Assembly: GCF_039503195.1 (NCBI RefSeq)
Contig: NZ_JBCJKP010000001.1
Coordinates: forward strand, 1,550,001-1,614,000
From: Streptomyces mirabilis
GTDB taxonomy: Bacteria; Actinomycetota; Actinomycetes; Streptomycetales; Streptomycetaceae
Length of the DNA stretch: 64,000 nucleotides
Direction of reading: 5' to 3'
Positions 25,448-48,014 of this stretch are shown here, one piece after another. How positions within the stretch are numbered: the stretch's first letter is position 1; each line of letters begins with the position of its first letter. Both the position numbers and the translations under genes were made by a program. The notes below the pieces were generated by a model that did no database searches, was not told where the DNA came from, and worked only from the letters and a program-made list of their open reading frames with translations.

Positions 25448-25465
25448 TTCCGACGGAGGTGCGCA

Positions 25466-25563: not shown

Positions 25564-25581
25564 ACTGATCCGCTCATCAGT
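25564..25581. promoter_or_regulatory. Inverted repeat upstream of the TetR gene at 25611
   Basis: ACTGAT (25564-25569) and ATCAGT (25576-25581) flank a 6-bp spacer, 29 bp before the TetR start. A TAGGAT at 25598-25603 may be the -10 box of a nearly leaderless transcript, or its AGGA the ribosome binding site. Autorepression is the likely role. Confidence 0.45.
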
Positions 25582-25610
25582 TCTGAAGAGGCCGCGGCTA
25601 GGATGATCGC

Positions 25611-26287: not shown

Positions 26288-27067
26288 TCAGGGGCGCTCG
26301 GTCAGGAACCGGTCGATGGTCGAGGTGAGTTCCTCGGGCTTCTCCACCGGGAGTTCGTGGCCGGCGTCCAGGATGCGCACCTCCGCGTCGGGGTAGGCCT
26401 TCGCCATCCGCAGCATCTGGGAGACGGGCAGCTGGATGTCGTAGTAACCGTGGATCATGAGGGTGGGGACACGGATCTCCCCGACCCGGTCGAGGACGTC
26501 GAAGGACCGCATCGCGCCGTAGCAGGTCATGACCACCTCCCGCGGTGTGGCCGCGGAGGTCCGGATGTACTCCTTGATCTCCTCGCGCGGGTACCCGGGG
26601 GCGAAGGCCCGCTGGATGTTGGCGGCGACGAACACCTTGAACGGCACCCGCGTGGACACCGCCATCAGCAGGCCCCTCCCCCTGCTGTACGTCATCCGGC
26701 TGATCGAGTTCACCAGGACCATGCGCTCGATCCGGTCCGGGTGGCCCAGCGCCAGGGTCTGCGCGATCATCCCGCCCATCGAGTGACCGACGGGGACGAA
26801 CCGTTCGACCTTCAGGTGATCGAGGACGGCGAGGACGTCACCGGCCAGCTCCCCGATGCTCCGCCGTCCCGAGCCGTCGCTCTCTCCGTGGCCGCGCAGA
26901 TCGACACGTATGACCCGCCGCGTGGCGGAGAAGTGGGCCAGCTGGTGGTCCCAGCGGTGCCGGTTGGCGGTCCAGCCGTGGATGAACACCAGGGGCGCGC
27001 CCGCACCGTCACGGGGGCCCTCGTCGTCGTACGTCAGCCTGGCGCCGTCGACTTCGAGCTGCGGCAT
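26288..27067 (-). CDS. Alpha/beta hydrolase
   Basis: A 259-residue alpha/beta-hydrolase-fold protein: oxyanion region FIHGWTANRHRWD (about residues 28-40), nucleophile elbow VGHSMGG (Ser at about 95), acid residue near HGYYDIQ and catalytic His in DAGHELPVEKP. It has no signal peptide. AGGAGG precedes the ATG at 27067. It lies 64 bp downstream of another hydrolase and is the last gene of the FAAL-PKS operon; a role in hydrolysing or editing the lipid product or stalled thioesters is an inference from position. Confidence 0.88.
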   Translation of the reverse strand: MPQLEVDGARLTYDDEGPRDGAGAPLVFIHGWTANRHRWDHQLAHFSATRRVIRVDLRGHGESDGSGRRSIGELAGDVLAVLDHLKVERFVPVGHSMGGMIAQTLALGHPDRIERMVLVNSISRMTYSRGRGLLMAVSTRVPFKVFVAANIQRAFAPGYPREEIKEYIRTSAATPREVVMTCYGAMRSFDVLDRVGEIRVPTLMIHGYYDIQLPVSQMLRMAKAYPDAEVRILDAGHELPVEKPEELTSTIDRFLTERP

Positions 27068-27131: not shown

Positions 27132-28268
27132 TCACCGTCGTTCGCCGAGGAATTCGAGGATGTGCCCGAACACGTCGAGGGCCGCGCCCCGGCCGAGGAA
27201 CGTGTCCAGGTGGCCGTAGCCGGGAATCTCGGTGTACGCGACGTCCAGCTGTGGCTGTCTGCGGGCCAGTACGTCGTGACAGAGCCTCTGGGAGTCGAGC
27301 CACAGACCGTTCTCGCTGCCGGCGAGCAGCAGGACGGGGGTGTCGATTCGGGCCGCCGCGTCCAGCGCGTTCTGCGGCAGCGCCCGGTAGCGGTGGTCGC
27401 CGTCGTGCCAGCGCACCACGGTGCGGGCCAGCTCGATACGGCGCAGATGCGGCAGGATCCACAGCGGGGCGGGGCCCAGCAGCTCGGCGAGCCGGTGGTG
27501 GGTGGCCTCGGACAGGTGCTCGTGCACGAACAGCGAGGCGCCCGTCCCCCACGCCGAGTTGTGCAGGATCTGGCAGGTCGGATCCGGGCAGCTCGCCCCG
27601 CGCGAGGCGAGGGCGAACAGGGGGGTGTACTTCGACCACAGGCCGGCCCTGCGGATGTCGACCGGTATGTGATCGATGCGGGACCTGAGCAGCTCTCCCG
27701 CCAGCGACATGCGCAGCGAGGTGCGGCCCGCGAGCTTCGGCGTCAGGAACACGCCCTGGGACACCACACCCGCGAGGCCCGGGACCAGCCCGGCCGTCAT
27801 ACTGAGCGACAGCGTGAGGGAGCCGACGCAGTGGGCGACCACGAACAGCGGCCGGTCGCCGATGCGGCCGCGGATGTGGGAGACGGCCGCCGGGATGTCG
27901 TACAGGGCGACGTCGTCGTACGTGTACTTCTGGCCGGTCTCGTTGTACGGCAGCCGGCAGCTGCCCCGCCAGTCGAGCAGCCAGGGCTCGTAGCCGTCGT
28001 CGAGCAGGACGTCGACCAGGTTGCGGGTCTCGGGCAGCAGGAACATGTCGGCGGACGCGGTGTGCCCGTGCAGGAGCAGCACGGCGGGGCGGTCCGTGTC
28101 GCCGCTGTCCACCCGGGTCAGGCCGAGGCGTACGCCGTCGCCCGCCCGGAAGGGGATCTCCTCGACCCGCGCCGGGTCGAGGCGGTGGTGGAGGGGACGC
28201 AGGGTCGTGGTGCTCCTGACCCTGCGGAGCATCGGCCTGGTGCGGGAGTCGGTGCTCCGGAGGATCAT
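27132..28268 (-). CDS. Alpha/beta hydrolase of the cholesterol-oxidase-associated type
   Basis: A 378-residue hydrolase. LLLHGHTASADMFLLPETRN (about 74-93), WLLDWRGS, the elbow VAHCVGS with Ser replaced by Cys at the nucleophile position (H-C-V-G), and IPGYGHLDTFLG with the catalytic His. The pattern, including CPDPTCQILHNSAWG, matches the hydrolase half of large Streptomyces/mycobacterial proteins that combine GMC oxidoreductase, a lipid-binding-like domain and this hydrolase. ATG 28268 overlaps the stop of the thioester reductase gene (ATGA), so it is coupled to it. A Cys nucleophile is common in dienelactone-hydrolase-like and polyester-synthase-like enzymes and could point to acyl transfer rather than simple hydrolysis. 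Confidence 0.85.
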   Translation of the reverse strand: MILRSTDSRTRPMLRRVRSTTTLRPLHHRLDPARVEEIPFRAGDGVRLGLTRVDSGDTDRPAVLLLHGHTASADMFLLPETRNLVDVLLDDGYEPWLLDWRGSCRLPYNETGQKYTYDDVALYDIPAAVSHIRGRIGDRPLFVVAHCVGSLTLSLSMTAGLVPGLAGVVSQGVFLTPKLAGRTSLRMSLAGELLRSRIDHIPVDIRRAGLWSKYTPLFALASRGASCPDPTCQILHNSAWGTGASLFVHEHLSEATHHRLAELLGPAPLWILPHLRRIELARTVVRWHDGDHRYRALPQNALDAAARIDTPVLLLAGSENGLWLDSQRLCHDVLARRQPQLDVAYTEIPGYGHLDTFLGRGAALDVFGHILEFLGERR

Positions 28269-29959
28269 CGGTGGTGCTCCGAGGGGGTCGTGGTGCGGCG
28301 GAGGTCGAGGAGGTCGGCGGCGGCCCGGGCGAAGGGGCCGAGCAGACCGCGGCCCATCTCCAGGCCGAACCAGGCGAGCCAGGTCAGCTTGGCGGCCCGC
28401 TTCTCCTGGCTGGTCAGGCGCGGGTCGACCTTGATGCCGTCGACCTGGTCGCGCAGATAGCTGTCGGCGGGCACGACGAGCTCGCCCGCCAGGGCCGCCG
28501 GTGCGCCCTCGCGGCCGATCTCGACGGTGAGCGCCCGGGTCTGGCGCCATACGTCACGACGGGCCCGGGCGTACTTGTGGCCCTCCAGCCACCAGCGGCC
28601 GCCTTCCGCGTCACGCAACGCCAGCCGGTAGCTGAGGAGTCGGTGGCGCATACCGTGCCGCTGCGGGATGCCCTCCTCGGGCCGGATCCAGAGGTCGCCG
28701 TGCTCGACGACCAGCGGTTCGGGATGAACCGCCGCGCACGTCAACTCGCCGGTGACGTCGACGCGGCGCTCCTTCACCAGCTGGTACATGCTCGCGAGGG
28801 AGAGGGTGAGCGCCATCGAGCAGGGAGTGTCGGCGGGGGCTCCGACCGGGCCGACACCGCCCTCGGTCGTCTCGGAGAACCACAGATAGGGCTGGTCGTC
28901 CTTGTGCGGCAGCCGGGCCAACCCGTCCTGGGCGAGCCGCTCGAACGTCCTCAGCTGGGCCTGGGCGTCGTAGCGGGCGGCGGGCCGCAATCCGAGCGCC
29001 TCGACGAGCGCGGCGGTGCGCTCGGCGGCGGCCGCCGGGCCCTTCAGGGTCGCCTCGCACAGTCTGAGCGCGGTGGGGCTCTGCAACACCCTGGTGAGGA
29101 AGGCCAGTTCGGGCACGGGCTCGGCTTCCAGCCGGGCCAGGGCGTGGGTCCGCCACTCGTCCCAGTCCTGTACGCGTACGTGCATCCCGCCGAGCGCCAT
29201 GTCCCGCACGACGTCGTCGAGGGTGTTGGGTACGCCGGTCAGGTTGTAGTCGTAGCCCCACGCGTCCGGTTCGCAGACGACGCCGACCGCGACCCGGCTC
29301 ACCCAGTCCACCGGGGCCGCGTTCAGGTGGCTGAAGGCGGGGACCGTGCGGAAGCGGCCGAAGGCCGAGAGGAGACCGCTGCTGAGGTCCTGCGGGTTGT
29401 AGGCGCCCGTCCTGGTGTGGCCGCCGATGCCGCCGGGGCGCAGGGCCGTGACGATCAGGCCGTGGTCGCGGGCCCGTCGCAGGGCGACCTCCGCCGCCCA
29501 CTTCGTCTGGTCGTATCCCGCGACGAGGCGGTCGACATGGGCGAGCGGGTCGTCCTCGCCCATCGCGGTGATGCCGACCTCGTTGAAGACCGCGATGGAG
29601 GAGATGTGGTGCAGCGGCTTCGGCCGGCCCGTCGCCGCGAGCTCGGCGAGGGTCAGCGAGCCGACGACGTTGCTCTGCCGCAGCGACTGGTAGCCGCGCA
29701 GGAAGTCCACGGCCGCCGCCACGCCGACGACGCTGTCCAGCTCGTGGGTGAGCCTGGTCCACCGTTCGTCGGACAGGCCCAGGTGCGGGCGCCGGATGTC
29801 GCCGGGGAGCACGGTCACCCGGCGGCGGACCTCCGACGACCAGGGCAGCTCGTATCTCTTGAGCGCCTCACCGAGCCGCCCGAGGGCCGCCTCCTCGTCG
29901 GCGGCGCGGACCAGGCAGTAGACATGGGCGTCGCTGTGCCGCAGCAGGTCGAGGAGCAT
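28265..29959 (-). CDS. Thioester reductase domain protein, continuing a frameshifted carrier-reductase gene
   Basis: The frame encodes 564 residues from its only start codon (ATG 29959), but the same open frame extends upstream to about 30110 and there encodes PPRRILLTGATGFLGSHM, the NAD(P)H-binding glycine motif of a thioester reductase (NAD_binding_4, SDR-e). No ATG, GTG or TTG precedes that motif, so a working enzyme requires continuation from the carrier-protein frame upstream. The reductase core runs to about residue 270 (ISSIAVFNEVG, GYDQTKWAAE with the catalytic Tyr-Lys, ALRPGGIGGHT). The last about 200 residues (RHRLLSYRLALRDAEG; WWLEGHKYARARRDVW) resemble a domain found fused to GMC oxidoreductase and the kind of hydrolase encoded next. 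Its job would be NADPH-dependent reductive release of the polyketide. Confidence 0.82.
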   Translation of the reverse strand: MLLDLLRHSDAHVYCLVRAADEEAALGRLGEALKRYELPWSSEVRRRVTVLPGDIRRPHLGLSDERWTRLTHELDSVVGVAAAVDFLRGYQSLRQSNVVGSLTLAELAATGRPKPLHHISSIAVFNEVGITAMGEDDPLAHVDRLVAGYDQTKWAAEVALRRARDHGLIVTALRPGGIGGHTRTGAYNPQDLSSGLLSAFGRFRTVPAFSHLNAAPVDWVSRVAVGVVCEPDAWGYDYNLTGVPNTLDDVVRDMALGGMHVRVQDWDEWRTHALARLEAEPVPELAFLTRVLQSPTALRLCEATLKGPAAAAERTAALVEALGLRPAARYDAQAQLRTFERLAQDGLARLPHKDDQPYLWFSETTEGGVGPVGAPADTPCSMALTLSLASMYQLVKERRVDVTGELTCAAVHPEPLVVEHGDLWIRPEEGIPQRHGMRHRLLSYRLALRDAEGGRWWLEGHKYARARRDVWRQTRALTVEIGREGAPAALAGELVVPADSYLRDQVDGIKVDPRLTSQEKRAAKLTWLAWFGLEMGRGLLGPFARAAADLLDLRRTTTPSEHHR

Positions 29960-30054
29960 ATGGCTGCCGAGGAAGCCGGTGGCGCCGGTCAGCAGGATCC
30001 GACGGGGCGGCAGCGGCTCGGGGTCGCCGGTCCAGGGCAGCCGGTCGGCGAGCG

Positions 30055-30819
30055 TCAGGTCGGCCAGGATCCGGTCGAGGTCCTCGGACCGGGCCGTGGC
30101 GTACGGGGCGGGGGGGCGGCCACCGCGGGGACGGCCACCGCGGGGGCGGTGCGGGGGCCCGGGACGGGGAGGATGCCGGGTGCGGGCGCCGGACGGTTGC
30201 CCGCGGCGGACGACGGAGGCGGACTTCCCACCGTGACCGAACCCGAGGTCCCCTCGGACCTGGCTGTACCTGCCGTGTCCGGGGCCCGGATCACCCCGGG
30301 CGTGGGCGTCTTCGGTGCGGCCGGGGCCGAGAGGGCGGCCGTGGCGCCCGCCGTCGGCAGCCGGCGGTGGGCCAGGCTGGTCGGGCGGGCGTCGGCGAAG
30401 ACGTCGTCGAGGGCGATCTCCATGCCCAGCTCGTCCTCCAGCGCGGCGACGAGTTCCACGGCGCCCACCGAGGTGCCCCCGGCGTCGAAGAAGTCGACGT
30501 CGGGCGACAGGTGCCCCTCGGGCAGATGCCGGCCCGCCACGGCGGCGATGGCTGCCGCCAGAGCCGCCACGTCAGGGACCGCTGCCGCCGGACCCTCCAC
30601 GTCCCGGACCGCTGCCGCCGGACCCTCCACGTCCCGGACCACGTCCGGAACCGCCCCCGCCGCAACGCCTGCGGCGGGACCGGTCGGCGTGGGCGCCGCG
30701 GCCGTCCTCACCTTGGCCAGCAGGGCGTCCACGCTCAGCCCGCCACCACCCCGCTCGATCGCCTCGGCCGCCGCCCGCTGTCCGGCGTACACCGACGCGT
30801 CCTCGTTCATCTCACGCAT
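30055..30819 (-). CDS. Carrier protein (PCP/ACP) with long linker, N-terminal part of carrier-reductase
   Basis: A 254-residue frame with a helical N-terminus (about 1-38, possibly a docking segment), a linker with a duplicated VRDVEGPAAA unit, a carrier domain (about 83-155) with the phosphopantetheine site FFDAGGTSVGAVE (Ser117; the GGTS core is the peptidyl-carrier form), and a Pro/Ala/Gly linker. The stop at 30055 results from a C7 run at 30110-30116: one extra base, or a -1 slip, would fuse it to the thioester reductase into an 851-residue protein. ATG 30819 has GAAGGG six bases upstream, 78 bp after the PKS stop. I infer it receives the glyceryl unit made by the FkbH domain of the PKS. 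Confidence 0.8.
   Translation of the reverse strand: MREMNEDASVYAGQRAAAEAIERGGGGLSVDALLAKVRTAAAPTPTGPAAGVAAGAVPDVVRDVEGPAAAVRDVEGPAAAVPDVAALAAAIAAVAGRHLPEGHLSPDVDFFDAGGTSVGAVELVAALEDELGMEIALDDVFADARPTSLAHRRLPTAGATAALSAPAAPKTPTPGVIRAPDTAGTARSEGTSGSVTVGSPPPSSAAGNRPAPAPGILPVPGPRTAPAVAVPAVAAPPPRTPRPGPRTSTGSWPT
30110..30116 (-). other. C7 run: apparent frameshift or programmed slip site
   Basis: On the minus strand the sequence is GCC-GCC-CCC-CCG in the carrier frame. The reductase frame is reached by reading one C twice (-1 shift) or by an eighth C. The total length 28265-30819 is 2,555 nt, one short of a multiple of three. Possible explanations are a sequencing error, a recent inactivating mutation, transcriptional slippage or -1 ribosomal frameshifting on C-CCC-CCG. 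Confidence 0.8.
30571..30640 (-). repeat. 30-bp tandem repeat in the carrier-protein linker
   Basis: Two 30-bp units (30571-30600 and 30601-30630, two mismatches) and a third partial copy (30631-30640) encode a repeated VRDVEGPAAA linker segment N-terminal to the carrier domain. The unit keeps the reading frame. Confidence 0.85.
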
Positions 30820-30897
30820 GAGAGCCCTTCACCCCGTGACTTGTCCTTTCGCGCACTGCCACCACTGCCACCGCCTTCACCCGTCGGCGCCGCCGGT

Positions 30898-33800
30898 TCA
30901 CCCCCGCCGCCAGGACCGGAAGGCCCGCAGGTGTTCCGGCGTGACCACGGTCTCCAGACGTTCGTCGTCCTGGTCCCCGCCACCGAGCGCGGCCAGCAGC
31001 CGCCGGGCCGGTACGTTGCGCGGAGTGTGCTCCGCCGTCAGTCGGACCTTGACGCAGCCCAGCTCGTCGGCACGGTCGGCCAGCCACCGCAACAGCCGTT
31101 CCTCGACTCCCCGGCCGAGCGCCCGGCAGCTCATCAGCCAGGCCAGTACGTCGAGTTGGTCGCCGTCCGCACGGAGGGCGAGCAGCCCGATCTGGCCGTA
31201 GTCGCCGAACCGGTCCCGGGCCGCGGCCGTCCACACCTCACCGCGCTCCCGCCACCGCCCGAGATCGCCCCCGTCGGCGGACCGGCCCCGCAGGGTGAAC
31301 TGATTGGTACGGCGGAGGAGTTGCTCGGCCCGCTCGACATCGGCCCCGGACAGGGCCCGGATGTCGACCTCAAGTTCCAGCTGGGCGAGGAACTCCTCGA
31401 ATCCGGCCTGCGCGCGCACCGCGTCCCGGTCCCGCTCCTGTTCGTAGAACCGTGCCCGCAGCGCGTCCTCGGCCGTCGCCGCGGCCGGCACGAGCGGCCA
31501 CAACCTGCCCAGGAATTCCCCCAGTTCGGCCGACGGCGGGCAGGTCACCGACAGCACCTCCGGCAGCGCGGACCGCACTCCCGCGATCTCGACCGGGTTG
31601 TCGTCGAGGAACAGGAAACTGTCCGGGCCGAGGCCGAGCGTCCGGGCCGCCTCGGCGAGCCGTGCGGACTTCGGGCCCCAGGTCGCGGAGAGCACGCTGA
31701 AGTGTTCGGCCTCGAGCAGGCTGTCCGGGCGGTCCAGGACGGCCCGTACCGTGGCCTCGTCGTTGTTGCTGACCAGTGCCAACAGCGCGCCCGCCGCACG
31801 CCACTGAAGGAGTCGGCGGGCGAGCAGGGCACGCGGTCCGGTCAGGTCCACCGCCTCCGGGCCGATCTCCCCGGCCACTCCGCCCCACAGCGTCTCGTCG
31901 CCGTCCACCGCGATCACCTTGGGCGCGGGGCGCCGTACCGCACGGACGACGTCGGCGAGGCACAGCGCCACCGCCGCCTGGAAGTGCGGGGTGAAGGGCA
32001 GGTGGGCGATGCGCTCGGTCCGCTCGTCGAAGGGTTCCTCGACGGCGTGGCATCGAGTCCAGTCGTCGGGGCGGAGCACCGCGATGCCGGGCACCTCGGC
32101 CAGTTCGTCGGCGACCTCGCGCTCCCACCGTGCGAAGCGGCCCCGCGCGTGCGCGGACGGCAGGAAGCCGACGATCAGCGGCTTTCGCGTCCGTTCGGAC
32201 ACGGCGCGCAGCGCGGCCGGGAACGCGGTGCGCAACTCGGCGAGCAGCGCGTCGTCCACCGGGCCGAACCGTTCCATGTCCGCCGCCCGCAGCAGCGCCA
32301 CGCCCACCGCCGCCGTGGGGTCGGCGAAGACGCCGCAGGGGTCACGCAGGGCGGCGAGCACCTGGTGGTACGGGGCTTCCGCGACGGTCAGGCCGCCGTC
32401 CCACGCGCCTTCCTCGACCGCCGCCTCGCACAGCAGGGGCAGATTCCCGAGGGCGAAGGTGGCGGCGAGGGCGAGCGACCGGCGCGGGGGGTGGCGAGTG
32501 TCCTCGGGCGCCCCCTCGGGCACGTCCACCGCCGTACCCGACGTCGAACGGACCGCCGGCGTCGCCTCGACCGCCGTATCCGGCATCGAACGGACCGCCG
32601 CCGTCGGATCGTCCGCCACCTCCGCGAGCAGCCGCAGGAACCCCTCCCCCAGTTCGACAGAGGTCGCCGCGTCCAGGATGTCGAGGTTGTGGTCGAGCCG
32701 GATCCGGCCCGCGTCGGGGGTCATGGTGATCATCAGGTCGAGGTCGGAGTACCCGGTCCCGGCGGGCAGAACCTCCAGGTGGGCGAGACGGCCCGCCGCG
32801 GAGCGTACGTAGTTGAAGTACACCTCCACCAATGGCGCGTTCGCCCGGTGCAGCCCCTGTCGCGTGAGGGTCGACAGCACGTCCGAGAACATGGCGCCCT
32901 TCGCGCGGACCCGGTCGAGGCGGCCGTCGGTGCGGCGCAGCACCCGCTCGATCGGTTCGCCCGCCCCGGCCTCGGCCGGGAACGGCACCGGCACTCCGAA
33001 GAAGCCCACCGCGTCGTACGCGTCGGCGTGGATGCGGGTGTCGACGGGCACGGCGAGAACGAAGCGTTCCTTCTGCCGCATCCTGGCGAGCAGCACGGTC
33101 AGGGTGCCGAGGCAGAAGGCGGCGGGCGTGATCGCGAGCGCGCTCGCGGCGGCCGACACCCGTTCCATGAGCCCGTCGGGGATCGTCACGCTCACGCTGC
33201 CGGCCCGGTACGAGCGGGTCGCCGGGCGGGGCCGGGCGAGCGTCAGGTCGAGTCGGTCGCTGCCCTGGAAGGCCTCACGCCATGCGGTCACGCCCTCGCC
33301 GGGGGTGTCGTCCGTCGGTTGCGCCTCGATCAGGAGATCGATGTCCCGGTTGGTGACGGCGTCGCCGAGCGAGGTGCCGGACAGTTCGGCGTCGAGTTCC
33401 CCCGCCACGAGCAGCAGCGACTGCAGGTCGCTCACCGCGTGGTGCGCGCCGAACGCCAGGACCTGGCCCCGGGCACCGGAATCGAGCAGCTCGAAGCGCC
33501 ACAGCGGAGGGTTCACCAGGTCGAAGGGCGGTTCCAGCAGCCGACGCAGCCGGTCGGCCCCGTCGAGTTCGTCGTCGCCGGGCACGTCCGTCCAGCGCAG
33601 CACCGGCCCTGCGAGCTCTCGGTCCACCCGGAGCAGCCGCGCGTGTTCGCCTCCGGCACCGGTCACGATCGCGGTGCGCAGCGCGGCGTGCCGTCCGGCG
33701 AGACGGGTGAGGATGTCGGTGAGCTCCTCGCGGGTCGTGGGCGTGGTGAGCCGGAGGGCCAGGCCGACCGCGTGGGCCGCGTCCGGCATGCCCGGCGGGG

Positions 33801-39800: not shown

Positions 39801-42800
39801 CCCGCCGGTGGTGGGCGAGTTGGTCGAGGAAGACGTTGGCCGCCGCGTAGTTGCCCTGTCCCGCGTTGCCGACGACTCCGGCGGCCGAGGAGACCAGCAG
39901 GAACAGGTCGAGTCGCGCGTCGGCGGTGAGCCGGTGCAGGTGGGCGGCGCCGTCGACCTTGGGGCGCAGTACCTGCGCGAGGCGTTCGGGCGTCAGCTCG
40001 GCGACCACCCCGTCGGCCAGGACTCCGGCGCAGTGCACGACACCGCGCAGCGGCGACTCCTCCCCGATACGGCCGAGCAGCCCGGCCACGGCCGCCGCGT
40101 CCGCGATGTCGCAGGCCGCGACCTCGACCTCGACGCCGAGCGCGGTCAGTTCGGCGGCGACCTCGGCGGCGCGTGGATCGTCCGGTCCTTGACGAGACGT
40201 CAGAAGTAGGCGCGGAACGCCGTGTTCGGCGAGCAGCCGGGCGATGTGCCGCCCGACGGCACCGAGACCTCCGGTGATCAGCACCGTGCCGTCGGTGGGT
40301 ACGAGGGCGGGGCGGCCGACCGGGTCGGGGACGACCGGGGTGCCGGTCGCGTCCCGGTCGCGGGCGCGGACGAGCCGCGGCGCGAGCAAGGTGCCCGCGC
40401 GGGAGGCGAGTTCGGGCTCCTCGGGGCGGGTGGCGGCGGTCAGGAGCACGTCCGCCGGGTCGGAGTCGTCGAGGTCGAGCAGGGTCAGGCCGAGTTCCGG
40501 GTGTTCGGCGCGGGCGCTGCGGGCGAGCCCCCACAGCACGGACTGGGCGAGGCCGGGCACGGTGTCCTCGTCGACGGCCGCGACCGCACCGCGCGTCACC
40601 CACACGGTCCGGGCGGGTGCCGCGTCCTGCGGGAGGGCGATCAGGGCACGCAGTTCGGCCAGGGCCGAGGCCGCCAACTCCTGTGCCGCCGCGGACGGTT
40701 CGACGTCCGTCGCCGGGCGCGGCCAGAACCGTACGAACACGTCGACGCCGCCCGCCCCGCTCACGTCCGCGCCGCCCGTCCCGCTCCGGACGTGGGTCCT
40801 CCCCGCCTCCGCGAGGCCGCGCAGGGCCCCGGCGACCTCCGGGTCCGAGGGGGCGCCGACGACGGCCCACTCGGTGCCCGCCGCCGCGTCGGGCTGTTCG
40901 GGTACGGCCGTCCAGACCACCTCGTACAGGTGCCGGGCGTTCTCCGAGGCGCCGTTCAGATCAGCCGGGTCCGCCGCCCGCAGTCGTACGCCCTCCAGAC
41001 GACCGGCCGGGAAGCCGTCGGTGTCCCACAGCGCGACGTCCAGGGTGAGGTCCGTGCCGGAGCCGCCCGTGCGTCGTACGGCAGCGGTGAGGTCCCTCGC
41101 GCCACCGGGCGGCAGGACGCACCGGCCCACCGCGACCGGGAGCAGCACCCGACCGTCGGACGCGTCGAGCCCGGCGGCCACGTGCAGCGCGGCGTCCAGC
41201 AGGGCGGGGTGGAGGGGGTACGGGTCTGCCGCGTCGCGGGCCGTGGGCGGCAGCGAGAGCCGGGCCAGCAGTTCGCCGTCGCCGGTCGTGACCGCCGACC
41301 GTACGCCCTGGAAGGCCGGGCCGTAGCCGAGGCCGAGCGCGGTGAGCCGCTCGTACGTCTCCGGGGTCCAGGCCGGTTCGGCGGCCTCCGGCCACACCGG
41401 GGGCCGATCCGCCGTCGGCGCGGCGGGCGCGGACGCGGACGCGGTGGCGTGCAGGGTCCAGCCCGTGGCCTCTTGGGCGCGCGGGCGGCTGTGCACGGTG
41501 ATCTCCGGCAGGGGGCCGGCGGTGACCACCTCGACGGACACCTCGACCGTGCCGGAGTCGGGGAGGGTGAGAGGGCTGAGGAGGAGCAGATCGGTGAGGT
41601 CGGCCGGGTCGTCCGGGCGGGCCACGGCGAGTGCGGCGCGGCAGAGTTCGATCAGGGTGGTGCCGGAGACGACGGTCCGGCCGAACACCGTGTGGTCGGG
41701 CAGCCAGTCGGCGGTGTCCTCCGACCACTCGCCCCGGAAGGTCCAGCGGGTCTCGTCCGGCGACTGGAGCTGGATCCCGAGCAGGGGGTGCGCGGCACGG
41801 TCGAAGAGGCCGGAGGCACCGGTCGTGGACTCGGGCTCGATCCAGTGGCGCCGCGGATCCCAGGCGTACGTCGGCAGGTCGGCGGGGGCGGTGTCGGGGA
41901 CCAGCCGGCGCCAGTCGATCCGCCGTCCGTGGACGTGGAGTTCGGCGGTGGCCCGGTCCAGGCAGGCGGGTCCGTCCTCGTCGCGGCGCAGCGAGCCGAC
42001 GGCGACCAGGTTCTCGTGGCCGGAGTCCTCGGCGACGGTGTGCAGGGCGGTGACGAGGGAGGGGTGGGGGCCGAGTTCGACGAAGCAGCGGTACCCGTCC
42101 GCGGCCATGCGCTCCACGGTGGGTGCGAAGCGGACGGGTTCGCGCAGATTGGTGTACCAGTAGTCGGCCTCCAGCTCCTCGGTGACCGGCTCGCCGGTGA
42201 CGGTGGAGTACCAGGCGACGGAGGTCGGGCAGGTGGTGACGCCGTCGAGTTCGTCGAGGACCGTCGCGCGGACCGGCTCCACCCCGGGGCTGTGGGAGGC
42301 GTAGTCGACGTCGAGGCGGCGGGCGAAGACCTGCTCGCGGTCGAGGTCGGCGAGCAGGGTTTCCAGGGGCTCGACGTCACCGGCGATCACCGTCGAGCGG
42401 CCGCTGTTCACGGCGGCGACCCATACCCGTCCGTCGAGGTCGGCGAGACGGTCCTCGACCTCGTCGTGCGGGAGGGCGACGACGGCCATGGTGCCGGTGC
42501 CCGACAGCCCGGTCAGGGCCTGGCTGCGCAGGGCGACCACCGCGGCGGCGTCGCTCAGGCTGAGCGCGCCCGCGACGCAGGCCGCGGCGACCTCGCCCTG
42601 GCTGTGCCCGACCACCGCGTCCGGCCGTACACCCCGGGCCCGCCACACCGCGGCCAGGGACACCATCACGGCGAACAGGACCGGCTGCACGACGTCCGCG
42701 CGGTCCAGGGGCGGGGCGCCCTCGGCACCACGCAGGACGGCCGCCACCGACCAGGTGGTGAAAGGGCGCAGGGCGGCGTCGCAGCGGTCGAGTTCGTCCG

Positions 42801-44862
42801 CGAACACCGGGTCGCGGTCGAGCAGGTCGCGGGCCATACCAGCCCACTGGGAGCCCTGGCCGGGGAAGACGAACGCCAACTTGCCGGTGGGGACGGTCTG
42901 CTGGGGTCCCACGACCGTATCGATACCAGTACCAGTACCAGTACCAGTACCGGTGTCGGTGTCGGTGTCGGTTGGGCCCTCGGCGAGTGCGCGCAGGGCG
43001 GTCAGCAGGCCGTCGCGGTCGGTCGCCCGCACGACGGCCCGGTGCTCGAAGTGCGTGCGGTGGTGGGCCAGCGTCGCGGCCACTTCGGGCAGCGTCGGCC
43101 GCGGCTGTGCGTCGAGCGCTTCGAGGAGGCGGGCGGCCTGGCCCCGGAGGGCGGGGAGGGTACGGGCGGAGAGCGGGAAGAGGGTCGCGCCGGGGAGGTC
43201 CGCCAGGGGTGTCCCGGTGGCCGGCCGTACGAGGTCCCGCGGCGCCTCCTCCAGCACCACGTGCGCGTTCGTACCGCTGATCCCGAACGCGCTCACCCCG
43301 GCCCGCCGCACCCGGTCGCCGCCCCGCGGCCATGTCCGGGCGACGCTGTGCACCCGCAGGCCGCCGCCCGCCCAGTCCACGTGCTCGGTCGGGGTGTCGG
43401 CGTGCAGCGAGGCGGGGAGCAGTTCGTGGCCGAGGGCCAGGACCGTCTTGATGACACCGCCGATGCCCGCCGCGGCCTGGGTGTGACCGATCTGGGACTT
43501 GAGGGAGCCGACACCGAGCGGCCGGTCGGCCGGGCGCCCCGGCCCGAAGACGGCGGCGAGCGCCCGGCCCTCGATGGGGTCCCCGAGCCGGGTGCCCGTG
43601 CCGTGCGCCTCGACGTGGTCCAGGTCGTCCGGGCGGAGTCCGGCCGCGCCGAGGGCGGCCCGCACCACCCGTTCCTGCGCCGGGCCGCTCGGGGCGCTCA
43701 GGCCCTGGCTGCGGCCGTCCTGGTTGATCGCCGACCCCTTGACGACGGCGAGGACCCGGTCGCCGTCGCGGCGCGCGTCCGCGAGCCGCTTGAGCAGCAC
43801 CAGACCGCAGCCCTCGGCCCACACCACGCCGTCCGCGTCGGTCGAGAACGGGCTGCACCGCCCGGACGGCGACAGCCCGCGCAGCCGACTGAACTCGACG
43901 TGTCCGCGCGGGGTGACAAGGAGCGTCGCGCCGCCCGCCAGCGCGAGGTCGCACTCGCCGCTCGCCAGCGCCCGCGCGGCCAGGTGCAGGGCGACGAGGG
44001 AGGAGGAGCAGGCGGTGTCGACGGTGACCGCCGGGCCCTGAAGGCCGAGGGTGTAGGCGATGCGTCCGGAGGCCACACTGGACGCCGAACCGGTGCCGAC
44101 GTGCCCGTCGAGCCGGCCGAGCGCGGCCGAGGCCTGGTAGCCGCTGTCGTACAGCCCGATGTAGACGCCCGTGGAGCTGCCGTTCAGGGTGTCCGGGACG
44201 ATCCCGGCGCGCTCGATGGTCTCCCAGGCGGTCCTGAGCAGCAGCCGCTGCTGGGGGTCCATGGCCGCGGCCTCGCGCGGTGAGATCCCGAAGAAGTGCG
44301 CGTCGAAACGGTCGATGTCGGAGAGGAAGCCGCCGCGCAGGGTGTACGCCGTGCCGGGGGCCTCCGGGTCGGGGTCGTAGAGGCCCCGGGTGTCCCAACG
44401 GCCCGCGGGCACCTCGGTGATGGCGTCCTCGCCGGAGGCGAGCAGCCGCCACAGCGCCTCGGGGTCGTCGGCGCCGCCGGGGTAGCGGCAGCCCATGGAG
44501 ATGACGGCGATGTCCTCGTCGCCGCGCACGGGCGCGTCCGCCGGCGGCGGCGCCGCCGCGCCGACGGGTCCATCGTCGAGGACCGCCGCGGCGAGCGCCG
44601 CGACGGTGGGGTGGTCGAAGACGAGGGACGGCTCCACGGGGCGGCCGATCCGACCCGAGAGCTCCGCGGCCAGGGTCACCAACTGGCGAGATCCCAGGCC
44701 GAATTCGGCGATCGGCCGCTCGGGGTCGACGGCCAGTGGGTCGAGCCCGGCCGCCTCGGCGACGGCCGACGTCAGCCAGGCCCGCACGTCCTCGGAGGTC
44801 ACGTCCTCGGAGGTCGTGAGGGACATCTCGGGGAACTGCTTCGGGGACTCGCTCGCAGGCAT
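30898..44862 (-). CDS. Type I polyketide synthase: ACP-[KS-AT-DH-KR-ACP]x2-C-FkbH
   Basis: 4,654 residues. Domains (approximate residues): loading ACP 24-96 (GLGS, Ser58); KS1 116-540 (DTACSSS Cys285, HGTGT 420, IGHTQ); AT1 660-960 (GHSQGE, YASH, so methylmalonyl-CoA likely); DH1 1024-1280 (DHTVFGRTVVSG, last Pro replaced by Ser; HPALLDAALH); KR1 1340-1740 (TGGLGAVG, Tyr1671, GVLADG, B-type-like); ACP1 (GMDS, Ser1838); KS2 1902-2330 (Cys2072); AT2 2432-2735 (GHSLGE, FASH); DH2 2794-3060 (HRVTGEVWLP intact); KR2 3070-3520 (TGGLGGLG, GVLDDA); ACP2 (GLDS, Ser3603); condensation domain 3672-4090 (HHAVSD); FkbH-like region 4127-4654 with HAD motif VDGDETLWGG and C-terminal GNAT-like part (LMSCRALGRGVEE). 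No ER and no thioesterase. A fatty acyl-AMP ligase gene lies upstream to load ACP0; a carrier-reductase gene follows. The FkbH domain should form glyceryl-S-carrier from 1,3-bisphosphoglycerate. Confidence 0.93.
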   Translation of the reverse strand: MPASESPKQFPEMSLTTSEDVTSEDVRAWLTSAVAEAAGLDPLAVDPERPIAEFGLGSRQLVTLAAELSGRIGRPVEPSLVFDHPTVAALAAAVLDDGPVGAAAPPPADAPVRGDEDIAVISMGCRYPGGADDPEALWRLLASGEDAITEVPAGRWDTRGLYDPDPEAPGTAYTLRGGFLSDIDRFDAHFFGISPREAAAMDPQQRLLLRTAWETIERAGIVPDTLNGSSTGVYIGLYDSGYQASAALGRLDGHVGTGSASSVASGRIAYTLGLQGPAVTVDTACSSSLVALHLAARALASGECDLALAGGATLLVTPRGHVEFSRLRGLSPSGRCSPFSTDADGVVWAEGCGLVLLKRLADARRDGDRVLAVVKGSAINQDGRSQGLSAPSGPAQERVVRAALGAAGLRPDDLDHVEAHGTGTRLGDPIEGRALAAVFGPGRPADRPLGVGSLKSQIGHTQAAAGIGGVIKTVLALGHELLPASLHADTPTEHVDWAGGGLRVHSVARTWPRGGDRVRRAGVSAFGISGTNAHVVLEEAPRDLVRPATGTPLADLPGATLFPLSARTLPALRGQAARLLEALDAQPRPTLPEVAATLAHHRTHFEHRAVVRATDRDGLLTALRALAEGPTDTDTDTGTGTGTGTGIDTVVGPQQTVPTGKLAFVFPGQGSQWAGMARDLLDRDPVFADELDRCDAALRPFTTWSVAAVLRGAEGAPPLDRADVVQPVLFAVMVSLAAVWRARGVRPDAVVGHSQGEVAAACVAGALSLSDAAAVVALRSQALTGLSGTGTMAVVALPHDEVEDRLADLDGRVWVAAVNSGRSTVIAGDVEPLETLLADLDREQVFARRLDVDYASHSPGVEPVRATVLDELDGVTTCPTSVAWYSTVTGEPVTEELEADYWYTNLREPVRFAPTVERMAADGYRCFVELGPHPSLVTALHTVAEDSGHENLVAVGSLRRDEDGPACLDRATAELHVHGRRIDWRRLVPDTAPADLPTYAWDPRRHWIEPESTTGASGLFDRAAHPLLGIQLQSPDETRWTFRGEWSEDTADWLPDHTVFGRTVVSGTTLIELCRAALAVARPDDPADLTDLLLLSPLTLPDSGTVEVSVEVVTAGPLPEITVHSRPRAQEATGWTLHATASASAPAAPTADRPPVWPEAAEPAWTPETYERLTALGLGYGPAFQGVRSAVTTGDGELLARLSLPPTARDAADPYPLHPALLDAALHVAAGLDASDGRVLLPVAVGRCVLPPGGARDLTAAVRRTGGSGTDLTLDVALWDTDGFPAGRLEGVRLRAADPADLNGASENARHLYEVVWTAVPEQPDAAAGTEWAVVGAPSDPEVAGALRGLAEAGRTHVRSGTGGADVSGAGGVDVFVRFWPRPATDVEPSAAAQELAASALAELRALIALPQDAAPARTVWVTRGAVAAVDEDTVPGLAQSVLWGLARSARAEHPELGLTLLDLDDSDPADVLLTAATRPEEPELASRAGTLLAPRLVRARDRDATGTPVVPDPVGRPALVPTDGTVLITGGLGAVGRHIARLLAEHGVPRLLLTSRQGPDDPRAAEVAAELTALGVEVEVAACDIADAAAVAGLLGRIGEESPLRGVVHCAGVLADGVVAELTPERLAQVLRPKVDGAAHLHRLTADARLDLFLLVSSAAGVVGNAGQGNYAAANVFLDQLAHHRRALGRPGVSLSFGAWAGEGLAAAHADLNRMARLGHRALTPDQGRELVELALRQGAPHLVAWALDLPRLRETAATAATTGVGSTAAVWRSLLPAPRTGRSGGDGLADRLARLPEAERAERVLALVREEISRALGLRSTESVRPDQPLRELGMDSVTAVELRNRIGARIGAKLPATLLFDHPTAARLAAHLLSTALAAGDRTTPATRPTRVTTPAADEPVALVAMACRLPGGVSDPEGLWTLVAEGRDAVGPFPAERWDVAALYDPDPDAVGKSYAHEGGFLNDDDLTSFDAGFFGITPKEAAAMDPQQRLLMETAWEALERAGIVPAELAGSATGVYVGMFGSDYLAGSRLDQLDGYVGTGSALSVASGRLAYVLGLAGPALTVDTACSSSLVALHLAAQALRAGECDLALAGGVTVMVTPGTFVEFSRLRGLSPTGRCRSFSDDADGAIWAEGAGMVVLKRLSDARRDGDEVLAVLRGTAVNQDGRSQGLSAPNGPAQEQVIRRALELSGLQPADIDYVEAHGTGTTLGDPIEANALAEVFGDSRPQDHPLYLGSLKSNIGHAQAASGVIGLLKVVQSLRHRTLPRTLHADTPSRHVDWENSGLRLVRDTAPWPSSPGRTRRAGVSAFGISGTNAHVIVEEAPPVEKADEKDEIPAGKRLFALSGRSEAALRGQAARLADHLTEEAGEDIALPDVAHTLARHRSHFERRAALVAGDRDELLLRLDALARGRAPLAAPRDDGTGKVAFVFAGHGGQWPGMGVELMAGSVAFREELVRVDEAVRRRVGWSVLNALRAPEEFAPLGRTEFLQPVLFAVNASLAAAWRALGVRPDAVVGHSLGEIAAAYSVGALTLDEAVTVVTGRGQAVVPLVGKGGMLSLELPPARVEELLAPFTGRLFVAAVNSARSTAVSGEVDALAELRERLDERGIAARPLTTPFASHTPLMDPLRAELLDRFSGVRGVRTPTPLYSAVLAEPVPGDRLDADHWYANLREPVRFADTVRRMLDDGYRYFVELSPHPSLTSSIEAVAAEAGIDAVGVGSLRRQSDGHDVLLHGLGELYTAGYTPDWPLLFPQGRRVDLPTYAFTRERHWLAPAPATASAGGSPLLGTHLEASDEPDRHLFQADVDLDDSRFAYLTDHRVTGEVWLPGAAFLDMALEAASTLRGGGEVRLADVRFEQPLPLEVDRPVRLQLVLSPAEDGFRDFTIASTPSGGHGAPWQRHVSGRLAVTTETATDDEERLDAVRERCDEQVDLAAVYTGLAALGIDYGPAFRGLEEGRRTNVAALGRLAHTPAAGHLLHPAVLDAAFHTAALPGGAPEGRAFVPAAVGRLTFTGLRTAPVWATCRLRSVDGDTATVDLRLWDEDEQLVLEAREFELAALSPLDGALFETHWQPRPAAQHPPAEGGGLILADDTGVAAELTERLGSSVPWVIARRGESFGVDGPGRYVLDPADPRHLARLLDEAFPDGPPERVVQLSALDAPAITDAGTAEEAARLCCLSTLHLVRALADRPVGRAPRLFVVARGSQAAGDSTRVTHPEQALAWGFGLAVAQEYPELSATLIDLPPNDGVDALWTQLRHADDERLVALRESGRLVPRLARTRPDDGGNGEVTSDGVYLITGGLGGLGRVVAERLVRRGARRLALMSRGEPDARTASWIRGLEGHGTTVHLARADVADREELTAALGAVRREAGPIAGVVHAAGVLDDATVANLTDERVLRVLAPKVLGTTLLTELIPEAESLVLFASAAGLLGSAGQSPYAAANAFLDAWAHHLSRADRRALSLDWGAWAGVGMVAESGVRAAETGRSGLLALSPQDGGELFERVLATSRRQLAPLALDWETLAHDPDAARTRPILGDLITVPTGGDGADDLVASVFAATTERDRADRLEAYVRARVGQVSEGTVDVSATTALKELGLDSLMLVRLRNAFARELGAELPAATVFSASDIRGLARALGEVLPERDTAAQAGERRPEARRPEAAVEVPESELLPATRDVLRLLRSAPPGMPDAAHAVGLALRLTTPTTREELTDILTRLAGRHAALRTAIVTGAGGEHARLLRVDRELAGPVLRWTDVPGDDELDGADRLRRLLEPPFDLVNPPLWRFELLDSGARGQVLAFGAHHAVSDLQSLLLVAGELDAELSGTSLGDAVTNRDIDLLIEAQPTDDTPGEGVTAWREAFQGSDRLDLTLARPRPATRSYRAGSVSVTIPDGLMERVSAAASALAITPAAFCLGTLTVLLARMRQKERFVLAVPVDTRIHADAYDAVGFFGVPVPFPAEAGAGEPIERVLRRTDGRLDRVRAKGAMFSDVLSTLTRQGLHRANAPLVEVYFNYVRSAAGRLAHLEVLPAGTGYSDLDLMITMTPDAGRIRLDHNLDILDAATSVELGEGFLRLLAEVADDPTAAVRSMPDTAVEATPAVRSTSGTAVDVPEGAPEDTRHPPRRSLALAATFALGNLPLLCEAAVEEGAWDGGLTVAEAPYHQVLAALRDPCGVFADPTAAVGVALLRAADMERFGPVDDALLAELRTAFPAALRAVSERTRKPLIVGFLPSAHARGRFARWEREVADELAEVPGIAVLRPDDWTRCHAVEEPFDERTERIAHLPFTPHFQAAVALCLADVVRAVRRPAPKVIAVDGDETLWGGVAGEIGPEAVDLTGPRALLARRLLQWRAAGALLALVSNNDEATVRAVLDRPDSLLEAEHFSVLSATWGPKSARLAEAARTLGLGPDSFLFLDDNPVEIAGVRSALPEVLSVTCPPSAELGEFLGRLWPLVPAAATAEDALRARFYEQERDRDAVRAQAGFEEFLAQLELEVDIRALSGADVERAEQLLRRTNQFTLRGRSADGGDLGRWRERGEVWTAAARDRFGDYGQIGLLALRADGDQLDVLAWLMSCRALGRGVEERLLRWLADRADELGCVKVRLTAEHTPRNVPARRLLAALGGGDQDDERLETVVTPEHLRAFRSWRRG
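42924..42972 (-). repeat. Hexanucleotide microsatellite in the KS1-AT1 linker
   Basis: On the plus strand (TACCAG)4-TAC is followed by about three copies of CGGTGT. On the coding strand it gives alternating Asp-Thr then Gly-Thr dipeptides. Being a multiple of three, copy-number changes would only lengthen or shorten the linker. Confidence 0.85.
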
Positions 44863-44914
44863 CGGGAAAGGTGTCCTCGTGAACTCGGGTCAGGCGGATT
44901 CCGTACGACGGGTA

Positions 44915-44954
44915 CGGCGACCGTGGACGGCGACCGTGGACGGCGACCGGTCGA
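44915..44954. repeat. 13-bp tandem repeat between the FAAL and PKS genes
   Basis: CGGCGACCGTGGA occurs at 44915-44927 and 44928-44940, with a partial third copy to about 44954, in the 217-bp gap between the ligase stop (45080) and the PKS start (44862). The rest of the gap shows no gene; a GAGG about 12 bases before the PKS ATG is the probable ribosome binding site. Confidence 0.75.
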
Positions 44955-45079
44955 CGGTGATGGGTGGACGGCGCAGGCACCGGCGCACGACTGAGGAACC
45001 CCAGGTGTACGGCGGGTACACCGGGATGCCCCCTCGGCGCGGGTGTCCGCGCCGACAGGGGGGGTTGACCTCGTCTACC

Positions 45080-46804
45080 TCATCTCGCGGCGGACGCGCC
45101 CACGACCGCGAGGGCGTCGGCGAGATAGGCCGCCCGGGAGGCGTGGCGCTGGATCTTCCCGCTGGACGTCTTGGGGATGGTGCCGGGGTGGACCAGCACG
45201 ACGTCACGCACCGCGAGGCCGTGGGCCTCGCCGATCGCGCTGCGGATCACCTCGGTGATCCGCTCGGAGTCGGCCGCCGCGTCCGGAGCCGTCTCGGCGA
45301 CGATGACGGGCTGCTCGCCCTCGACGCCGCCGTCCACGGAGAACGCGGCGGTGCAGCCCGGCCGAAGCGCCCCGTGGGACATCTCGGCGGACAGCTCCAG
45401 ATCCTGCGGGTAGTGGTTGCGTCCGTCGATGACCATCAGGTCCTTGAGGCGGCCGGTGACGAACAGCTCGCCCTCGCGCTGGAATCCGAGGTCTCCGGTC
45501 CGCAGGAAACGGTCCGGACGGTCCTTCAGCGTGGCCCGGAAGGTCTCGCGGGTGGCGAGGGCGTTGCGCCAATAGCCCTTGGCGACGCCCGCGCCGCTCA
45601 CCCAGATCTCGCCGACCTCCCCCTCCGGCACCTCCTCCCGCCGCTCGGGGTCGGCGATCACCACGGTCGTACCGGGGATCGGCCGCCCGGAGCCGACGGC
45701 TGCCGCGTCGGCCGCGCCCGCGTGCGGACTTGACCCGGGGGCCGCGGCGAGGAGGGGCGGGGTGTCGGCCGACCCACCGGTGACGATGAGCGTGGCTTCG
45801 GCGAGGCCGTAGCACGGATAGAGGGCCTCGCGGCGGAAGCCGACCGGCCCGAAGGTCTCGGTGAAGCGCCGCAGGGTGGCGGCCCGTACCGGTTCGGCTC
45901 CGTTGAAGGCGACCTTCCACCGGCCGAGGTCGAGTCCGTCGAGGAGTTCGGGGGTGGCGTGCTTGAGGCACAGCTCGTAGGCGAAGTTGGGGCCGCCGCT
46001 GGTGTGCGGGCGGTAGCGGCTGAGGGCGGTCAGCCAACGCGCGGGCCGCTGGAGGAAGTGCAGGGGCGAGAAGAGCGTGGCGGTGGCGCCGAGGTGGACG
46101 GTGTTCAGGACCGGGCCGATGAGGCCCATGTCGTGGTACACCGGCAGCCAGCTGACGAACAGTTCGTGGTCGTACTCCGCGAGCGTGTCCGGGGTGTGGC
46201 CCATCCGCTCGGTGATGGCCCGCTCGTTGTCCAGCAGGTTCCCGTGCGTCACCATCACGCCTCGCGGGGCGGAGGTGGAGCCGGAGGTGTACTGGAGGAA
46301 GGCGACCGAGTCTGCGGTGAGGTCGGGTTCGCGCCAGGAGTCGGCCGCCTCGTCGGGTATGTCCTCGGTGGCGACGCAGGTGATCCCGTCCAGTTCGGGC
46401 AGGTGTTCCGCCTGGGCGGCCAGGGTGGCGAGCACCTCACGGCCGCCCAGGATCACCTTGGCGTCCGCGTCGGCGATGAGGCGCTTCATGCGGGTCAGGG
46501 CACGGTGGTTCTGCGACCGCCCCTGCGGGGGAACGCCCGGCACGGCGACGACCCCGGCCGAAAGACAGCCCAGGTAGCCGCAGATGAACTCCAGGCCGGG
46601 CGGGTACAGCAGCAGCGCACGGGATCCGGCCAGGCCGCGTTCCTGCAGCCAGGCGGCGACGGCGCGGGACCGACGGGCCAGACGTCCGTACGAGATGTCC
46701 TGGATCTCTCCGTCGCAGTCGCCCGTGACGAGGTAGCGGTATGCCGTCCGCTCCGGCTGTTGCGAGGCGTGCGTGGTCAGTAAGTCGACCAGGGAACGAG
46801 CCAT
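45080..46804 (-). CDS. Fatty acyl-AMP ligase (FAAL)
   Basis: A 574-residue adenylate-forming enzyme of the FAAL/FadD32-like group: P-loop LQYTSGSTSAPRGVMVTH (about residues 171-188), SWLPVYHDMGLIG (the long-acyl signature), LYPCYGLAEATL, RTGDLGF and the C-terminal catalytic Lys in PKTSSGKIQR. FAALs convert fatty acids to acyl-AMP and pass them to carrier proteins without making acyl-CoA. The obvious acceptor is the N-terminal ACP of the PKS encoded 217 bp downstream. ATG 46804 has AGGTGAG nine bases upstream; ATG 46828 has none. Codon 8 (46781-46783) is TTA, the rarest Streptomyces codon, read only by the bldA tRNA. Confidence 0.93.
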   Translation of the reverse strand: MARSLVDLLTTHASQQPERTAYRYLVTGDCDGEIQDISYGRLARRSRAVAAWLQERGLAGSRALLLYPPGLEFICGYLGCLSAGVVAVPGVPPQGRSQNHRALTRMKRLIADADAKVILGGREVLATLAAQAEHLPELDGITCVATEDIPDEAADSWREPDLTADSVAFLQYTSGSTSAPRGVMVTHGNLLDNERAITERMGHTPDTLAEYDHELFVSWLPVYHDMGLIGPVLNTVHLGATATLFSPLHFLQRPARWLTALSRYRPHTSGGPNFAYELCLKHATPELLDGLDLGRWKVAFNGAEPVRAATLRRFTETFGPVGFRREALYPCYGLAEATLIVTGGSADTPPLLAAAPGSSPHAGAADAAAVGSGRPIPGTTVVIADPERREEVPEGEVGEIWVSGAGVAKGYWRNALATRETFRATLKDRPDRFLRTGDLGFQREGELFVTGRLKDLMVIDGRNHYPQDLELSAEMSHGALRPGCTAAFSVDGGVEGEQPVIVAETAPDAAADSERITEVIRSAIGEAHGLAVRDVVLVHPGTIPKTSSGKIQRHASRAAYLADALAVVGASAAR

Positions 46805-46981
46805 ATGAGGAGTCTCACCTGTTCGCATGAGTGAGCGAGAAAAGTGGAGTTCGAAGGCCGCGGGGTGCGTATGCGCAGGTGCCGTGGCCGCCCGGCCCCC
46901 TTGCCGGACAGTCCGTCTCGACCAACCCGCCCGAGGAGCGGCGGCGATGCATACGCCGGCCCCTCGTGGCCCCCGTTCGGC

Positions 46982-47912: not shown

Positions 47913-48014
47913 GACACCCTGCCTCCTTCGCTCCGCCGCCCGGTCGGGGAACCAGGAGCGGAGAGCGAGCGGCGATCCCTTCCGACAGTACCGACGAGTG
48001 GCGGGGCCCGCGTC

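Follow-up and report, generated by a model that had tools for sequence, protein, structure and literature searches.

Closest described systems

The closest described relative of the locus studied here is the foxicin cluster of Streptomyces diastatochromogenes Tu6028, published in 2017 (Greule et al.; PMC5318452) with 21 further strains carrying similar clusters. Its core comprises foxBI (583 aa, named an adenylation, or A, domain), foxBII (4,807 aa), foxBIII (945 aa, named PCP-TE, peptidyl carrier protein-thioesterase), foxEI (378 aa) and foxEII (259 aa); S. avermitilis is listed there as a carrier of the core. The locus under study lies in a 64-kb stretch of the Streptomyces mirabilis genome (contig NZ_JBCJKP010000001.1, positions 1,550,001 to 1,614,000; hereafter the window) and encodes a fatty acyl-AMP ligase (FAAL), a polyketide synthase (PKS), a carrier protein, a thioester reductase and two alpha/beta hydrolases, E1 and E2. 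The domain string published for FoxBII is identical to that of the window PKS, which consists of acyl carrier protein (ACP), ketosynthase (KS), acyltransferase (AT), dehydratase (DH), ketoreductase (KR), condensation (C) and FkbH domains. Disruption of foxBII abolished the foxicins, of which foxicin A carries a C10 methyl-branched diene acyl group as an amide on an aminobenzoquinone, without a glyceryl ester (PMC5318452). By our own reading of the nuclear magnetic resonance text of that paper, the acyl group is 2,4,6-trimethylhepta-2,5-dienoyl.

The malleicyprol synthetase BurF is also similar, being a fatty-acid-primed PKS with two extensions followed by a C domain (active site written HHxxxDx), an FkbH N-terminal-like domain, a carrier and a reductase (PMC12304814). 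In vitro its C domain esterifies the chain with a carrier-bound hydroxy acid, and an aldehyde is then produced by its reductase. BurF is therefore a tested biochemical precedent for the ester formation and reductive release that a first-pass annotation, made from the window sequence alone, had proposed. The window has C, an FkbH-derived part, carrier and reductase in BurF-type order, with carrier and reductase split between frames. However, BurF lacks a catalytic FkbH and receives a different hydroxy acid from separate loading enzymes; its chain is beta-keto and cyclises, whereas the last module in the window has DH and KR with their motifs kept; and no lipase-like partner is mentioned in the passages of PMC12304814 consulted.

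The first modules of the vioprolide and corramycin lines are likewise of the type FAAL-ACP-C-FkbH-T, which in vioprolide yields an acyl-glycerate ester from the acyl chain and FkbH-supplied glycerate (PMC8949500, PMC10099666). These lines differ in continuing as a peptide, without reductase release at that module. The FkbH proteins of tetronate and methoxymalonyl pathways also make glyceryl-S-carrier. To our knowledge, they have no adjacent C domain or reductase, and the glyceryl unit is put to other use.

Relationship of the window locus to the foxicin cluster

A genome scan with the window reductase as query found 57 loci, among them contig NZ_MLCE01000003.1 of Streptomyces sp. Tue6028. This contig was taken as that of the foxicin producer from its strain name and gene lengths, with called open reading frames (ORFs) equal to the published lengths for foxBI (583), foxBIII (945), foxEII (259), foxGI (481) and foxA (371); the PKS as called has 4,869 aa against 4,807 published. 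Identity between the window and Tue6028 is 84% for the FAAL, 76% for C-FkbH, 85% for the reductase, 87% for E1 (378 aa) and 83% for E2, while the carrier part matches at only 49% over 177 aa. The gene order BI-BII-BIII-EI-EII is kept in the window, with the carrier-reductase (BIII) split into two frames there and a single ORF in Tue6028.

Downstream of foxEII, one unmatched ORF is followed by 12 consecutive Tue6028 ORFs collinear with window positions 1110-14778, with identities of 62-95% and one of them matched over 32 aa only. Judged by this collinearity, the core shares its downstream neighbours in both strains. It therefore suggests that the downstream part of the published fox cluster, at least in these two strains, is shared chromosomal neighbourhood into which the published border runs. 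The loci differ in about 11 kb (14.8-26 kb) that separates core and syntenic block in the window. They also differ upstream, where 15 ORFs were called before foxBI in Tue6028, including foxA and foxGI, none of which had a tblastn match in the window (1e-8). As neither foxA nor foxGI belongs to the 30 largest families listed across 32 loci, they were treated as non-defining for foxicin-type clusters.

The same core was sought more widely. Of 392 Streptomyces genomes, 185 had an FkbH match, which exceeded the cut-off in 178, and among the matches listed 35 lay in open frames of more than 4,500 aa, the window included. Thirty of the other 34 such loci were fetched as a first set of relatives; FAAL and PKS were found in all 30, reductase and E1 (the latter by tblastn) in 28 and E2 in 25.

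The five core genes, their order, the domain string, a DH1 motif described below and the collinear downstream neighbours place the window locus, by sequence, as a member of the published foxicin-type family of Streptomyces clusters. The first-pass annotation had regarded the pathway as possibly undescribed. This was not borne out, and an undescribed architecture was rejected after a literature search turned up the 2017 cluster with identical genes and domain string (PMC5318452).

Domain content and revised functions of FoxBI and FoxBIII

Searches with Pfam and NCBIfam confirmed the co-oriented string FAAL, ACP-(KS-AT-DH-KR-ACP)x2-C-FkbH, carrier, thioester reductase that had been read from the sequence. 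Pfam detected three PP-binding, two KS, two AT, two DH, two KR and one Condensation stretch in the PKS, and the FkbH domain was matched by TIGR01686 (NCBIfam) at PKS aa 4312-4632 with 410.7 bits against a cut-off of 146.65, the sole FkbH match in this 11.1 Mb genome. By analogy, the region between C and FkbH would sit where a NEX domain has been described in FkbH proteins, a name borrowed from PMC12304814. The shorter reductase ORF (28265-29959) scored 215.7 bits with TIGR01746 (NCBIfam; cut-off 213.35).

The FAAL scored 437 bits with the NCBIfam fatty-acid--AMP ligase model and 146 bits with AA-adenyl-dom, each below the cut-off of its own model. Fifteen PDB sequences match it at E<=1e-60, including FadD23, FadD28, FadD32 and a fatty acyl-adenylate ligase; the top match carries only the label "Polyketide synthase". 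By family scores and PDB sequence matches, the protein is nearer to fatty acyl-AMP ligases than to amino-acid adenylation domains. In the FoxBIII-type proteins of 28 relatives and Tue6028, the carrier motif GG(T/S)S is present in 29 of 29 and TGATGFLG and SSIAV each in 28 of 29; GYDQ(T/S)K occurs in 30 of 30 once the window reductase frame (GYDQTKW) is included. A Pfam search detected no thioesterase domain in the window carrier and reductase frames. The main text of PMC5318452 contains none of the terms fatty acyl, AMP ligase, FAAL and reductase.

In the model of 2017, FoxBI activates an amino acid, which is then coupled to the FoxBIII-bound glyceryl and set free by a thioesterase. It was proposed by the discoverers, and foxicin A contains two nitrogens (PMC5318452). 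However, FoxBI is 84% identical to the FAAL-like window protein, FoxBIII is 85% identical to the window reductase and has carrier and reductase motifs, and the thioesterase has no Pfam counterpart in the window frames; we regard this model as very improbable. By these sequence comparisons, the enzymology of the first-pass annotation corrects the published assignments, FoxBI being a FAAL rather than an A domain and FoxBIII a carrier-reductase rather than PCP-TE.

Catalytic motifs and the proposed pathway

Motifs were counted in an alignment of PKS proteins from 32 loci, the window included, and those checked were present and largely invariant. In the terminal part, 31 of the 32 loci retain HHAVSDL in the C domain, and both the FkbH motif DGDETLW and the MSCR cysteine are found in all 32. 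Upstream, AT1 YASH and AT2 FASH occur in 32 of 32, both ATs of FoxBII having been predicted as methylmalonyl-specific, and the DH1 motif HxxxGxxxxS, an unusual motif tied to the shifted double bond in FoxBII, occurs in 31 of 32 including the window (PMC5318452). Loss of FkbH or C residues was looked for, and the catalytic residues are present. The FkbH HAD motifs (DxDxT, LDDN) and a conserved Cys, taken in their familiar meaning, are likewise present in the window. With residues kept in C (HHAVSDL), FkbH (DGDETLW) and reductase (GYDQTKW), the earlier view of C-FkbH-carrier-reductase as a termination module in which FkbH replaces adenylation is supported.

The explanation that we consider probable is a foxicin-type core in which a glyceryl ester is formed on C-FkbH-carrier, released reductively and passed to FoxEI for acyl transfer or rearrangement. 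The FAAL, going by its family, would activate a free, probably branched, acid and load it on the N-terminal ACP, and the two modules would add methylmalonyl units and so give a 2,4-dimethyl diene acyl chain like that of foxicin A, as orthology and conserved motifs suggest. FkbH would move glyceryl from 1,3-bisphosphoglycerate to the separate carrier, in keeping with its family and kept residues. Following BurF and vioprolide, the C domain would then esterify the acyl chain to a hydroxyl of the glyceryl unit and the reductase would release an O-acylglyceraldehyde, or an acylglycerol if it reduces twice. FoxEI, lipase-like with Cys in the nucleophile position, may finally transfer or rearrange the acyl group, which could explain the amide without glycerol in foxicin A. 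Ester formation is proposed because the partner unit, glyceryl, has no amine, and not because of the C-domain sequence: the HHxxxDx active site of the window C domain is also found in ordinary C domains and is not diagnostic of ester-formers.

The first-pass annotation had the pathway end in a free O-acylglyceraldehyde or monoacylglycerol-like lipid. The enzyme order is as in BurF (PMC12304814), and the window, which has the five core genes but nothing that matches foxA or foxGI from upstream of the fox core, could make a simpler product than foxicin. Against this, the sole product known from an orthologous locus is an amide on a benzoquinone (PMC5318452), one or two hydrolases accompany the unit, so that a free ester may not persist, and the carrier-reductase is frame-split in the window. 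We therefore consider a free lipid unlikely. The domain identities and the termination-module logic of that annotation stood and the novelty of the pathway did not, while the glycerolipid product was not supported, foxicin A being the only product on which it can be judged (PMC5318452).

Several points weigh against the proposed pathway. The foxBII disruption was a single-crossover plasmid insertion, which may silence downstream genes too (PMC5318452). The known product does not demand an ester step, as foxicin A has no glyceryl ester. The window product may differ from foxicin, since foxA and foxGI (GAPDH-like) have no match there, and no metabolite is on record for the window strain. The FAAL scores lie under the NCBIfam cut-offs. 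In a phmmer search of PDB chains with the C domain, ordinary C domains score better than 4znm (E 0.023), which we take to be SgcC5, an ester-former. Finally, the frame split, if real, speaks against a working enzyme in the window.

The frame split in the carrier-reductase

The first-pass annotation had described a carrier-reductase; both domains are present and in order, but not as a single open frame in the window. The carrier ORF and the reductase are in different frames, and the reductase ORF begins downstream of the NADPH-binding motif TGATGFLG. This motif lies upstream in the reductase frame, where no ATG or GTG start precedes it. The two form one ORF in 28 of 28 fetched relatives having a reductase in the fetched stretch, the remaining two of the 30 being G063 and G061; in G061 the contig ends at this point and the reductase domain is on another contig. 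The database proteins P0005 (861 aa) and P0006 (851 aa) are single proteins and are 100% identical to the window over the last 253 reductase residues.

It is thus possible, though we think it somewhat unlikely, that the window locus is a pseudogene with a dead pathway. Carrier and reductase lie in separate frames without an ATG or GTG before the NADPH motif, and single ORFs are intact in the very similar P0005 and P0006. On the other side, the remaining core genes keep open frames, and the split is located in a proline-rich linker next to a run of C, where sequencing faults of a common kind arise. Because of this position, both explanations are possible: the window copy may be inactive through a strain-specific lesion, or it may be mis-sequenced.

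The lipase-like protein E1 and the extra domain of the reductase

The first-pass annotation ended the unit at the reductase; the two hydrolases E1 and E2 that follow belong to it, and the E1 ORF and the reductase stop overlap by 4 bases. Three PDB sequences were matched by E1, those of two gastric lipases (E 1.1e-10 and 3.3e-9) and of lysosomal acid lipase (1e-6), and in the two alignments shown its cysteine aligns with the serine of the gastric lipase GHSQG box. All 39 loci examined have the cysteine box (the window, 28 relatives, Tue6028 and nine of a second set described below). Among 120 listed database homologues its pattern was detected in 115 and had no match in the remaining five. Comparable Cys-for-Ser boxes are found in related acyl-transferring enzymes, for instance polyhydroxyalkanoate synthases. 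For this reason, acyl transfer or ring closure by E1 is judged as likely as hydrolysis. If E1 transfers acyl groups, this would explain the amide-linked acyl chain of foxicin A without glycerol.

The alternative in which glyceryl joins a product ring or lactone, with E1 closing the ring after reductive release in the manner of the malleicyprol aldehyde, draws on the same features. BurF is a precedent (PMC12304814), E1 is lipase-like with its Cys in the nucleophile position, and foxEI or foxEII were named as ring-closure candidates (PMC5318452). However, with DH and KR in the last module the chain should lack the 1,3-dicarbonyl that drove malleicyprol cyclisation, and we hold this alternative to be rather unlikely.

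After the reductase, its protein continues for about 250 residues as an extra domain matching no Pfam family above the cut-off. When 396 genomes of the phylum were searched with a profile built from 11 sequences, the matches outside Streptomyces included a GMC oxidoreductase-domain protein (E 8.9e-9; GMC_oxred_C exceeds its cut-off and GMC_oxred_N falls slightly short) and a patatin-like phospholipase (E 7.6e-6), the two being L176 and L177. Profile comparison backs both the GMC and the patatin links (pairwise E 2.2e-6 and 2.8e-7, probabilities 89 and 93). A PDB sequence search with the domain gave no match, and with the profile three weak ones at E 0.6-0.84. Searched as a single sequence in 21 genomes, it found two reductases and otherwise weak matches only, the best at E 0.006.

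A proposed termination cassette in other polyketide synthase lines

The extra domain was found at 47 places in 45 of 392 Streptomyces genomes. A second set of 12 loci (13 stretches, L164 and L165 being one locus) was examined, and in ten of them C, the between-region, FkbH, carrier, reductase, extra domain and E1 follow in order, with E1 of L167 cut by the stretch end. Of these ten, L171 and L172 are foxicin-type (E2 seen in L171 only) and L164/L165 is a divergent FAAL-fused form, while the remaining seven terminate other PKS lines, three of them cut short upstream. L166, L167 and L169 have KS-AT-DH-KR ahead of C, preceded by parts of further modules; L174 and L175, which belong to another genus of the family, have at least DH-KR ahead of C up to the point where the stretch is cut; in L163 Pfam finds KS, DH and four carriers but neither AT nor KR; and L170 is cut by the contig start. 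E2 had no match in the seven other-line loci or in L164/L165. Of the two loci outside the ten, L168 has FkbH but no cassette, and L173, which is the neighbourhood in G063, lacks a reductase. Identity between foxicin-type and other cassettes is 55-68% per domain, and 41-58% for the last AT, KR and KS.

From these loci it is proposed, with the evidence in our view evenly balanced, that C-FkbH, the carrier-reductase with its C-terminal domain and the Cys-lipase E1 form a portable termination cassette. It would end FAAL-primed two-module lines, other modular lines and one line having a KS without AT or KR, also in another genus, by glyceryl attachment and reductive release with the Cys-type E1 as acyl transferase or cyclase. 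The claim is made because the upstream PKS architectures are unlike, and not on distance correlations. The latter were rejected as proof of unit movement, as distance matrices correlate at 0.95-0.98 within the cassette but equally at 0.93-0.98 for the last AT and KR. Among the literature matches listed, there was no paper on C-FkbH-carrier-reductase in Streptomyces besides the foxicin paper (PMC5318452).

Conserved tailoring genes were also considered and rejected. Leaving aside FAAL, PKS, carrier-reductase and E2, the largest families across the 32 loci reached 15, 12, 10, 9, 9, 9, 8 and fewer genomes. That of 15 genomes corresponds to a shadow ORF on the opposite strand at E1, and E1 itself makes up one of the families of 9, the ORF caller having missed it in most loci; others look conservon- and P450-like by eye only.

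It should also be noted that two of the stretches show irregularities. In L169 (7776-8736) AT domain matches lie in three successive frames, pointing to indels in the assembly or the gene, and in L173 (19674-19856; G063) the PKS-FkbH has no following reductase and a carrier piece lies on the opposite strand, a rearrangement or misassembly.

Layout of the locus and flanking genes

All core genes lie on the minus strand (Table 1; coordinates are those of the 64-kb stretch).

Table 1. Features of the foxicin-type locus in the window
Feature	Coordinates	Strand	Details
FAAL (foxBI orthologue)	45080-46828	-	582 aa; Pfam AMP-binding
PKS (foxBII orthologue), ACP-KS-AT-DH-KR-ACP-KS-AT-DH-KR-ACP-C-FkbH	30898-44862	-	4654 aa; Pfam and NCBIfam
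C domain (about aa 3690-4100), HHAVSDL motif	32563-33795	-	Pfam PF00668, 76.2 bits
Region between C and FkbH (about aa 4125-4311)	31930-32490	-	tblastn matches in 42 loci
FkbH domain (HAD phosphatase and acyltransferase part), DGDETLW motif, MSCR cysteine	30967-31929	-	TIGR01686
Carrier protein ORF, N-terminal part of foxBIII orthologue	30055-30819	-	PF00550
Thioester reductase frame, from just before the Rossmann motif to the stop	28265-about 30043	-	PF07993, 187.6 bits
C-terminal domain of reductase protein	28265-29026	-	no Pfam family above cut-off
Lipase-like alpha/beta hydrolase E1 (foxEI orthologue), 378 aa, Cys in nucleophile position (AHCVGS)	27132-28268	-	
Alpha/beta hydrolase E2 (foxEII orthologue), 259 aa, ordinary GHSMG box	26288-27067	-	

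The region 14800-26000, which amounts to the roughly 11 kb absent between core and syntenic block in Tue6028, contains a GH92 glycosidase, a transporter permease, a DUF742 protein with a large sensor-kinase-like protein and an OpuAC binding protein. Just upstream of the FAAL (47082-51431) lie two more alpha/beta hydrolases and a DcuS/DcuR-like two-component pair; among the 30 fetched relatives, all four of these genes were found in G370 only, at 94-98% identity. An ABC ATPase and two NMT1/THI5-like binding proteins are found beside the locus at 51530-55607.

Significance

The label foxicin-type on a cluster should be taken to mean that it shares this core, with neighbours that differ. For the foxicin pathway itself, two enzyme assignments are corrected and a tested chemical precedent is supplied for its odd C-FkbH end. 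The new leads are the generalisation of the cassette beyond foxicin and its Cys-lipase partner E1. If the cassette reading holds, the products of several other Streptomyces PKS lines are predicted to pass through a glyceryl ester and reductive release, and one module would then be a common, unrecognised end group or release route for several unlike polyketide families.

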